Shown piece after piece: positions 30,324 through 33,175 of a DNA stretch of 34,236 nucleotides. Each line of letters opens with the position of its first letter. Position 1 is the first letter of the stretch. Below the pieces are notes generated by a model. The model worked only from the letters and a program-made list of their open reading frames with translations, was not told where the DNA came from and ran no database searches. Origin of the DNA: Gammaproteobacteria bacterium (lineage in GTDB: Bacteria > Pseudomonadota > Gammaproteobacteria > Steroidobacterales > JABDLF01); assembly GCA_013003115.1 (NCBI GenBank), contig JABDLF010000078.1:1-34236 (forward strand). The letters are read 5' to 3'. The position numbers were made by a program, and so were the translations under genes.

Positions 30324-30994
30324 TCATTTTTGAGAATGTCGCCAAGCGCTACCCCGGTGGCCAGGAGGCCCTCGCGGGCATGAATCTGCGGGTCGAGAAA
30401 GGGGAAATGGTGTTCCTCACCGGTCATTCGGGCGCCGGCAAAAGTACGTTGCTCAAGCTTATCGCGCTGATCGAACGCCCGACGCGCGGGCAGGTTTTTG
30501 TCAACCGGCAGAACACCAACGGCGTTTCGCGCGGCCGTATCCCGGGTTTCAGGCGGCAGCTTGGCATGGTGTTTCAGGATCACAAGCTGCTCAGCGATCG
30601 CACGGTTTTTGACAACGTCTCGCTGCCGCTGATCATTGATGGTCTCGGTCGAAAAGAAGTCGGACGGAAAGTACGCGCCGCGCTCGACCAGGTGGGACTC
30701 CTCAGCAAGGAAAAGAAAATGCCGCTTGCGCTTTCAAGTGGCGAGCAGCAGCGCGTTGGCATTGCGCGCGCCGTTGTCAGCAAGCCGGTCGTGCTCATCG
30801 CCGATGAGCCCACTGGCAATCTTGACCCGGAGCTGTCGTCCGAGATCATGAATCTCTTCATGCGGTTTAATGAGGTTGGCGTCACCGTGGTGGTTGCAAG
30901 CCACGACCTGTCTCTCATCGGCACGCTCGGCAAGCGGATCATAAAGCTGGCGGCCGGCCGCATCGATGATGCCGGTAACGGGGTGGCTCGCTGA
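30320..30994 (+). CDS. ftsE: Cell division ATP-binding protein FtsE
   Basis: 224 residues of the ABC ATPase family. With FtsX it controls peptidoglycan hydrolases at the septum. Walker A is GHSGAGKST, the Q loop is in VFQDHKLL, Walker B is VLIADEPTGNLD, and the H loop is VVVASHDL. The signature reads LSSGEQQRVGIARA where LSGGEQQR is usual, a small departure. The GTG start overlaps the ftsY stop by four bases (GTGA). Confidence 0.95.
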   Translation: MIIFENVAKRYPGGQEALAGMNLRVEKGEMVFLTGHSGAGKSTLLKLIALIERPTRGQVFVNRQNTNGVSRGRIPGFRRQLGMVFQDHKLLSDRTVFDNVSLPLIIDGLGRKEVGRKVRAALDQVGLLSKEKKMPLALSSGEQQRVGIARAVVSKPVVLIADEPTGNLDPELSSEIMNLFMRFNEVGVTVVVASHDLSLIGTLGKRIIKLAAGRIDDAGNGVAR

Positions 30995-30995
30995 T

Positions 30996-31967
30996 ATGCG
31001 TGGAAGAAGAAAGTCACTATGGTCAAGAGCCGTCAGCGCAGTGAGCATAAGCCCGAGAGTCTGGGCCAGCAGGCACGCGCAAACGCTTGTGGGATCCCTC
31101 GGACGGCTTTATCAGCAGCCGTTCTCGACGTTCATGACCATTGCCGTCATTGGCATTGCGCTCGCCATGCCTGCTGGTCTGCACCTGTTCGTGGTGAACG
31201 GCACCAACCTCGGCGGCCGCTGGGACAGCGCTGTCGATATCGCGGTTTACCTGAAGTCAGGTACCAGCCTGACGGACACTGAAACGCTGGCGGGAACCTG
31301 GCGCGAGCGCGATGACGTTGATGACGTGGAGGTAATAACGGCAGACCAGGCGCTCAGGGACTTCAAGGCCGGATCAGGTTTTGCCGATGCGTTTGAAGGC
31401 CTCTCTGCAAATCCGCTGCCAAACACCATTGTTGTCCGCCCGGCGGTGGACCGGTTAAGCGCAGATCAGGTGGCGCAGCTCGAACGCGCGCTCGCGGCCG
31501 CGCCCCAGGTTGAGCTGGTGCAGGCTGACACGCAGTGGGTGCAGCGCTTCTTCGCCATCGTCGAGATTGTCGAGCGACTGGTGACCCTGGCGACGCTTGC
31601 CCTTGGTCTTGCCGTGCTGGTCATCATTGGCAACACGATCCGGCTGGACATTTACAGCCGTCGCGAAGAAATCGAAATCGCCAAACTCATCGGGGCCACC
31701 GACGCTTTTATTCGCAGGCCCTTTCTGTACAGCGGTGCCTGGTACGGTCTCGGTGGCGCACTCATCGCGCTGCTCATGATCAGCGCGTTGCTGGTTTTGG
31801 TGCAGGGACCCGTGACCCGTCTCGCAGGCCTGTATGGCAGCAGCTTTGAGGTCGCCGGTCTCGGTGCGGGTATCGCCCTGACGATGCTACTTGCCGGGGG
31901 CGGCCTGGGTTGGCTGGGGTCCTGGATTGCAGCGGCCAGGCACATCCGCAGGCTGGAGCCTTCCTGA
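30996..31967 (+). CDS. ftsX: Cell division protein FtsX
   Basis: 323 residues. A cytoplasmic basic N-terminus (MRGRRKSLWSRA) precedes TM1 (FMTIAVIGIALAMPAGLHLFVV), a periplasmic domain of about 130 residues, and three C-terminal helices (from LVTLATLALGLAVLVIIGNTIRLDIYSRREEIEIAKLIGATDAFIRRPF, the FtsX hallmark). It links FtsE to periplasmic amidase activators. The ATG at 30996 lies one base after the ftsE stop, so the frame from 30966 is too long. Confidence 0.95.
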   Translation: MRGRRKSLWSRAVSAVSISPRVWASRHAQTLVGSLGRLYQQPFSTFMTIAVIGIALAMPAGLHLFVVNGTNLGGRWDSAVDIAVYLKSGTSLTDTETLAGTWRERDDVDDVEVITADQALRDFKAGSGFADAFEGLSANPLPNTIVVRPAVDRLSADQVAQLERALAAAPQVELVQADTQWVQRFFAIVEIVERLVTLATLALGLAVLVIIGNTIRLDIYSRREEIEIAKLIGATDAFIRRPFLYSGAWYGLGGALIALLMISALLVLVQGPVTRLAGLYGSSFEVAGLGAGIALTMLLAGGGLGWLGSWIAAARHIRRLEPS

Positions 31968-32024: not shown

Positions 32025-32052
32025 GGAACTTATGCTATATTTAGCACTCGAA
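32025..32052 (+). promoter_or_regulatory. Candidate sigma-E promoter of rpoH
   Basis: GGAACTT (32025-32031) and TCGAA (32048-32052) are separated by 16 bases, close to the RpoE consensus GGAACTT-N16-TC(A/T)(A/G)A. In E. coli one rpoH promoter is RpoE-dependent, which makes this plausible. A TATATT at 32036-32041 could also serve a sigma-70 promoter, though no good -35 fits it. Confidence 0.55.
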
Positions 32053-32067
32053 CCTTATGAGTGCTAA
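32041..32067 (+). promoter_or_regulatory. CIRCE operator (HrcA site) upstream of rpoH
   Basis: TTAGCACTC, nine bases, then GAGTGCTAA: a perfect match to the CIRCE consensus TTAGCACTC-N9-GAGTGCTAA. It ends 29 bases before the rpoH ATG and overlaps the -10 of the candidate sigma-E promoter. HrcA binds CIRCE and represses heat-shock genes; here it would control the heat-shock sigma factor itself. No hrcA gene is in the window. Confidence 0.92.
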
Positions 32068-32096
32068 TATTCGTTTTTGCTGGAGGAAAGCCATAT

Positions 32097-32960
32097 ATGA
32101 CCACCGCACTTGCACTGAGAGACCATTCGCTAGCGCTGACCGGCCCGGTCGGGAGCCTGGACGCCTATGTGCAAAATGTTTCCAGCATCCCCGTATTGTC
32201 TCGGGAAGAGGAACAAGAACTCGCCATGCGCTTTAAACAGCATGCCGATCTCGAAGCGGCGCGTCAGCTCGTTATTTCAAACCTGCGGTTTGTCGTTCAT
32301 ATCGCAAAGGGCTACTCCGGCTACGGCCTGCCCGTGGGCGATTTAATTCAGGAAGGCAATATCGGCCTCATGAAGGCGGTGAAGCGTTTCGATCCCTCCG
32401 TGGGCGTCCGCCTCGTTTCTTTTGCCGTGCACTGGATTCGCGCAGAAATCCACGAGTTCGTGCTGCGCAACTGGCGACTCGTGAAGGTTGCAACGACCAA
32501 GGCGCAGCGCAAGCTGTTTTTCAACCTGCGCAAAACACGCAAACACCTGGGATGGATGAGCGAGGACGAGCGCCAGGCGATCGCGAAAGATCTGGGCGTC
32601 GCCAAAAAAGATGTCGTCGAAATGGAAAAGAGGCTGGGCTCACGCGATATGTCCTTTGACCTCGGGCCAGGTGATGATGAAGAGCGGACCTTTGCGCCCG
32701 CCGCCTACCTGGAGTCGCCAGACGCCGATCCGGCCGTGGCATATGAAGAGGAAGACTTCATGGCCGACAGCCAGGCTCAGCTCGCAGCCGGCCTGGAAAC
32801 TCTGGACGAGCGCAGCCGCGATATCCTGACAAGGCGCTGGCTGGCCGACGACAAGGAGACCCTGCAAACGCTGGCAGATGAGTACGGCGTGTCGGCTGAG
32901 CGCATCAGGCAAATAGAGGCCAACGCAATTCGCAAGCTGCGCACCACAATGGCCGCCTGA
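32097..32960 (+). CDS. rpoH: RNA polymerase sigma factor RpoH (sigma-32)
   Basis: 287 residues (E. coli 284). It directs transcription of heat-shock genes. Region 2 is seen in [43 protein letters not shown] and [35 protein letters not shown] (the QRKLFFNLR RpoH box). Region 4 is [47 protein letters not shown]. The ATG at 32097 has GGAGGAAAG upstream; an earlier GTG frame overlaps the CIRCE site and is rejected. It follows ftsX, as in E. coli, but has its own promoter region. Confidence 0.97.
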
Positions 32961-32984
32961 CCCCGCCACACATTTCTATATGGA

Positions 32985-33010
32985 GCCCGGCCTCGTGCCG
33001 GGCTTTTTTT
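32985..33010 (+). terminator. Rho-independent terminator after rpoH
   Basis: GCCCGGC-CTCGT-GCCGGGC is a perfect seven-base-pair stem followed by seven T, 24 bases after the rpoH stop. Confidence 0.93.
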
Positions 33011-33079
33011 GTGCTGCGAATGTAAAACATGATCGACTCGGCGGCACAAAAGCGTCACTGCGGTTGACGCTGGCAGCAC
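33011..33079. other. Nested inverted repeats between rpoH and dodecin genes
   Basis: The outer arms GTGCTGC (33011-33017) and GCAGCAC (33073-33079) enclose an inner perfect stem AGCGTCA-N7-TGACGCT (33051-33071). The region starts right after the rpoH terminator. It could be a repeat element or a small structured RNA; nothing shows which. Confidence 0.35.
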
Positions 33080-33175
33080 GACGAACCTAACATGCCTGTC
33101 CCGGTTCTGCGCATCGAGGCGGCAGTCATGCTGCGGCGCGGGCCCCTGAATAACAGTTAAGCAAAGGAATTCGAT

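Follow-up and report, generated by a model that had tools for sequence, protein, structure and literature searches.

HrcA and sigma-32 are usually presented as parallel heat-shock systems, and the model organism E. coli has no HrcA. In B. subtilis, HrcA is active when GroE is free. The E. coli rpoH promoter P3 is driven by sigma-E and carries boxes of the GGAACTT / TCNAA type, and we know of no HrcA operator in the E. coli rpoH promoter. E. coli was not among the control genomes that matched the hrcA profile. A 2003 study by Permina and Gelfand may already give gammaproteobacterial rpoH sites. For Geobacter sulfurreducens, Table 8 of Rodionov 2004 (PMC545781) places a perfect CIRCE at -51 of rpoH and predicts control by HrcA.

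We analyzed a stretch of 34,236 nucleotides (the window), which is contig C96 of a 2.17-Mb MAG with a completeness of 82%. The rpoH promoter region of the window resembles E. coli P3 in its sigma-E-type boxes and differs from it, so far as we know the E. coli promoter, in having a CIRCE. With rpoH of G. sulfurreducens it shares a perfect CIRCE and the predicted HrcA control of the sigma-32 gene, but the table in PMC545781 gives a prediction in a deltaproteobacterium, and the nine non-gamma sites that we verified (Desulfuromonadia and others) were without a sigma-E box. A CIRCE before rpoH has thus been predicted already (Geobacter, 2004). Among titles and the first parts of abstracts, and in portions of PMC545781 and PMC3989490, a collection that covered few subscription papers, we recognized no report of the CIRCE overlapping a sigma-E promoter and no paper on such a composite or on HrcA control of rpoH in gammaproteobacteria.

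The element before rpoH and the regulators in the MAG

On one strand of the window, ftsY, ftsE, ftsX and rpoH follow one another. The sigma-32 gene rpoH (32097..32960, plus strand) matched the equivalog TIGR02392 with 404.7 bits against a cut-off of 323.1, and its upstream neighbour ftsX (30966..31967, plus strand) matched TIGR00439 above the cut-off. An operator of the HrcA/CIRCE type, TTAGCACTC-N9-GAGTGCTAA, was present in the rpoH promoter region. This predicted HrcA operator, which is kept across the order, occupies 32041..32067 of the plus strand, reads TTAGCACTC-GAACCTTAT-GAGTGCTAA with 0 mismatches, and ends 29 bases upstream of the rpoH ATG at 32097; the first-pass annotation had described a flawless CIRCE at this distance, and both the repeat and its coordinates were found to be right. 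When up to 3 mismatches were allowed, it was still the single match in the window, with a mean of 0.01 in shuffled sequences.

The operator is overlapped by a proposed sigma-E promoter. The candidate -35 element, GGAACTT (32025..32031, plus strand), is a sequence match in which the GAAC spacing is kept across rpoH sites. The candidate -10 element, TCGAA (32048..32052, plus strand), follows after a 16-base spacer and is made of the last 2 bases of the left CIRCE arm (TC) and the first 3 bases of the loop (GAA); the overlap of CIRCE with the promoter match at 32025-32052, noted at first pass, was confirmed. A search for GGAACTT-N15..17-TCNAA on both strands of the 34 kb window gave one match, the one before rpoH, and the rpoH promoter also matches GAAC-N18-TC, the type found before rpoE itself. 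The 43 bp at 32025-32067 are quite probably a composite in which a predicted sigma-E promoter overlaps a predicted HrcA operator. The right CIRCE arm forms TGCTAATAT (32062..32070, plus strand), which may be the extended -10 of another promoter, one of the housekeeping type, and GGAGG (32082..32086, plus strand) would serve as the ribosome-binding site. A terminator-like hairpin 3' of rpoH (32982..33006, plus strand) was found by pattern match. An ordinary sigma-70 consensus promoter before rpoH was considered and dropped, the single match of that scan lying at 33064-33093.

The first-pass annotation had suggested a search for hrcA and groESL elsewhere in the genome, and both were found. The hrcA gene is encoded on C107 (TIGR00331, E 1.3e-100, above the curated cut-off), and groESL with a CIRCE is on C106. 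The MAG has two more CIRCE-like sites, with 1 mismatch each, before groES-groEL on C106 and before hrcA on C107. There are two groES genes in this genome, one with a CIRCE (G000:C106:17022-17297, L002) and one without (G000:C5:55350-55628, L261 and L299). The CIRCE at hrcA had no close counterpart in 29 loci from relatives (L149-L177): unlike in the window genome, none had fewer than 2 mismatches, two loci having 2 and one having 3.

RpoE was not found above the cut-off in the 82%-complete MAG (best match, 79 bits), and neither were RseB and SdhB. When we translated the flanks of rpoE in three relatives, we found an SdhB-like iron-sulphur protein upstream and RseA/RseB-like frames downstream (named by eye). 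Since rseB and sdhB, which lie near rpoE in relatives, are missing as well, it is likely, if not proved, that this stretch is absent from the MAG. A missing stretch is the simplest reading of the absence of RpoE, and a true loss of RpoE in the window species is a possible alternative.

Conservation of the element in the order and beyond

The order sample consisted of 59 genomes, including that of the window, and a strict pattern detected CIRCE before rpoH in 31 of the 59. For the 28 negatives we found rpoH in 27 and could read the upstream region in 26 (G043 gave no rpoH match and G035 was cut). CIRCE was present in 22 of these 26, with at most 1 mismatch in 21 and with a 10-base loop in one (L181); the strict pattern therefore undercounts CIRCE at rpoH in the order. 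The comparison of related rpoH upstream regions, another check proposed at first pass, thus gave CIRCE in 53 of 57 readable genomes, and the four lacking it were every species sampled from a single genus (f12, g12). GAAC was located 14-16 bp before CIRCE in 46 of the 53 order sites, that is, in 25 of the 31 strict-pattern sites and 21 of the 22 rescued ones. Woeseiaceae fall within this order, since G045 and a MAG named as Woeseiaceae encode RpoH proteins with 100% identity. We dropped the idea that the element is unique to the window genome, as nearly every genome sampled from the order has it and it recurs at scattered places in the class. The rpoH element, as predicted from its letters, is a conserved composite and no single-genome curiosity.

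In the class sample, the strict pattern found CIRCE before rpoH in 29 of 369 genomes, 3 of them from the order of the window. A scan of the species collection gave at least 114 stretches with the CIRCE pattern before rpoH, and the taxa among the matches listed included Halieaceae, Alcanivorax, Ketobacter, Methylococcaceae, Halothiobacillus, Granulosicoccus, Rheinheimera, Kangiella and Geobacter. L096 (Chromatocurvus halotolerans) and L098 (Halioglobus japonicus) each carry the box together with CIRCE. We compared 139 non-identical sites, 136 of which were confirmed by tblastn to precede RpoH; we dropped L054 and L129, which gave no RpoH, and L106, which scored 53.5 bits on a cut contig. The 136 sites include close relatives and were chosen by the CIRCE core, so the conservation of the arms among them is by construction. 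By gamma-type we mean the 127 sites outside a hand-made, by-name list of nine non-gamma sites (and L106).

A GAAC box stood at -16, -15 or -14 of CIRCE in 20, 63 and 14 sites, respectively, giving 97 of 136. All 97 boxes belonged to the 127 gamma-type sites, where GAAC at any other position occurred at most 2 times, and in shuffles of the 139 sites it never exceeded 4 at one position. At the nine non-gamma sites, the sigma-E box was found in none. Of the 97 sites with the box, 73 had AA at loop positions 2-3 (TCnAA), against 4 of the 39 without it. The second and third bases past CIRCE read AT at 102 of the 136 rpoH sites, 75 of 97 with the box and 27 of 39 without. Across 89 box-bearing clusters, the information beyond the CIRCE arms lay in the GGAACT block, in three bases of the loop and in the AAT that directly follows CIRCE.

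Eight non-gamma loci, mostly Desulfuromonadia (L071, L090, L094, L107, L120, L130, L141 and L148), had an rpoH CIRCE without the box, often after a TATA-like -10 (by eye). By eye, too, tandem CIRCE-like repeats, or a partial second one, preceded rpoH in L091, L108, L207 and L229, and in L091 and L108 the upstream repeat was itself preceded by a GAAC- or GAAAC-type box. L039, on a contig named Verrucomicrobia, had the gammaproteobacterial composite before rpoH and is perhaps a misnamed or mixed bin.

Association with RpoE and HrcA, and control promoters

Within the order, RpoE was over the cut-off in 45 of 59 genomes and hrcA was found in 51 of 59. RpoE accompanied CIRCE plus box in 42 of 46 genomes; the remaining four were the window MAG, G039, which is 73% complete, G008, where the gene is interrupted, and G018, which has a fragment. 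Seven order genomes had CIRCE without the box, and RpoE was absent from five of them (f13 and G005) and present in G019 and G052. In f13 and G005, where RpoE was not found, CIRCE was kept and the box was absent in 5 of 5. In genus f12, hrcA, RpoE, both rpoH elements and the groES CIRCE were all not found (4 of 4), and since f12 is one clade, its loss counts as one event. The rpoH upstream regions of this genus had a sigma-32-like CTTGAAA-N13-CCC at -65, while position -34 held TGGTAAAAT or, in one of them, TGATAAAAT. From -65 to -26 of rpoH, the f12 loci L196, L197, L199 and L200 appear to be rewired to sigma-32 self-control.

We chose 68 further genomes by handle, some of the same order, 25 without the box and 43 with it (41 distinct genomes). 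RpoE was found in 43 of 43 box-bearing handles versus 19 of 25 box-less ones (Fisher p 0.002). A tree of 114 rows, in which the incomplete cases L010 and L201 had been left unlabelled beforehand, had 79 rows with RpoE and box, 21 with RpoE and no box, 14 with neither and 0 with the box and no RpoE; being box-less was part of the reason for including rows from outside the order, so 21 of 100 RpoE-positive rows without the box is no rate. RpoE is common in genomes without the box. The link between RpoE and box was not significant once relatedness was corrected, since independent pairs were too few (5 on well-supported branches, with a mean of 2.7 concordant and 0 opposite).

For HrcA, the gene was not found in 4 of the 53 CIRCE-bearing order genomes (G003, G012, G052 and G056); G003 is 100% complete and its groES CIRCE is perfect. 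In the class, where the test covered 22 of the 26 strict-pattern positives that do not belong to the order, together with 34 of the 340 negatives, hrcA was found in 20 of 22 genomes with an rpoH CIRCE versus 23 of 34 others, a weak difference (p 0.056).

As a control we examined 31 groES upstream regions, 30 from fetched loci, including the C5 copy of the window genome, plus the C106 copy. CIRCE with at most 3 mismatches was present in 30 of 31, the exception being the C5 copy. At these 30 groES CIRCEs, the GAAC box occurred once, AA in the loop once and AT after CIRCE never. TTGAA or TTGAC lay within 45 bases before the groES CIRCE in 28 of 30, and a strict sigma-32 pattern was matched in 10 of 30. 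The groESL operon of the same order thus has the same operator as rpoH, and presumably the same repressor, but there the operator stands behind a TTGAA/TTGAC box, sigma-32-like in some, whereas the rpoH CIRCE overlaps a sigma-E-type promoter. The upstream regions of rpoE itself in the order had GAAC-N18-TC in 25 of 29 and N19 in 3 of 29 (L234 was skipped); N18 was also the commonest spacing at rpoH, in 88 of the 123 rows with the box, a set in which some genomes appear twice.

Proposed regulation of rpoH and its alternatives

The prediction that HrcA controls rpoH at a sigma-E promoter has good comparative support from the conserved position and spacing of the sites, from the groES control and from the absences of elements together with regulators. 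While GroE is free, HrcA would be active and, sitting on CIRCE, would block both sigma-E and housekeeping RNA polymerase at rpoH, as it would cover the sigma-E -10, the expected start and the extended -10 of the right arm. Once GroE is occupied by unfolded protein, HrcA would become inactive and the rpoH site would open, and sigma-E freed by envelope stress or heat could then fire the open promoter. Sigma-32 would in turn drive groESL, itself under HrcA via its own CIRCE, until new GroE made HrcA active again and both rpoH and groESL were shut. Since groESL carries a CIRCE too, and in some relatives an evident promoter of the sigma-32 type, rpoH and groESL would come jointly under HrcA. We put a probability of roughly 0.78 on this reading, a feed-forward loop in which GroE-dependent HrcA represses rpoH at its sigma-E promoter as well as groESL; in it, we infer HrcA binding, the start sites, induction and the feedback. 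The first-pass annotation had proposed that HrcA represses and RpoE activates rpoH, which gains comparative support from position, spacing, the groES control and joint absences, although the MAG yielded no RpoE above the cut-off. Its placing of the two regulators in series was incomplete because the groESL operon also has a CIRCE, and a feed-forward loop closed by GroE describes the arrangement better.

It is unlikely, in our judgement, that HrcA represses rpoH at a promoter in CIRCE that is only of the housekeeping type, with TGCTAATAT as its extended -10 or with the upstream TGCTATATT, and that GGAACTT and TCGAA are incidental here. Such a promoter would agree with the failure to find RpoE in the MAG, with an AT flank kept at sites with and without the box, with TGGTAAAAT or TGATAAAAT in f12, and with the nine box-less non-gamma sites, several of which have a TATA-like motif before CIRCE (by eye). 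However, the window has a full sigma-E consensus at the correct spacing once in 34 kb, the box accompanies most order CIRCE sites, and rseB and sdhB, neighbours of rpoE in three relatives, are missing from the MAG along with it.

We regard as very improbable that CIRCE is no HrcA operator and acts instead as an RNA hairpin on upstream transcripts, for mRNA stability or, with the T-rich stretch, as an attenuator. A scan did mark 32041-32067 as terminator-like, but this was one of 4 such matches in the region versus 1.4 in shuffles, and CIRCE as a terminator was dropped. Among sites that were not chosen for CIRCE, 21 of 26 keep the letters of its arms to within 1 mismatch, and f12, without hrcA, is also without CIRCE. 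Taken from the expected start onwards, the 5' region folded no better than shuffles (z 0.18) and matched no Rfam family, and an RNA thermosensor there was rejected as well. As the proposed starts are inside or after CIRCE, the hairpin would not be part of those mRNAs. Least credible of all is a repeat that has no function at rpoH and is left over from decay or due to chance, given its 0 mismatches where 0.01 matches are expected even with 3 allowed, and its presence in 53 of 57 readable order genomes.

The feed-forward reading can be tested directly on natural absences, since genomes without RpoE have no box and keep CIRCE and those with neither regulator have neither element. On a broader proposal we are evenly balanced: the overlapping sigma-E promoter and HrcA operator may be an old gammaproteobacterial device at rpoH, a 43-bp gate that reads 'envelope stress or growth, AND GroE overloaded' and, through a feed-forward loop, sets HrcA above sigma-32. 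Where a lineage lost HrcA or RpoE, the device would have been rewired, apparently to sigma-32 self-control in the case of one genus, and the standard enterobacterial wiring would be a reduced form. Should the element act as proposed, two stress systems commonly treated as separate, envelope stress and a chaperone-sensing repressor, would meet at one switch at rpoH in many marine and environmental gammaproteobacteria, and many environmental gammaproteobacteria would set sigma-32 synthesis transcriptionally by their GroE capacity, beyond sigma-32 stability and mRNA melting.
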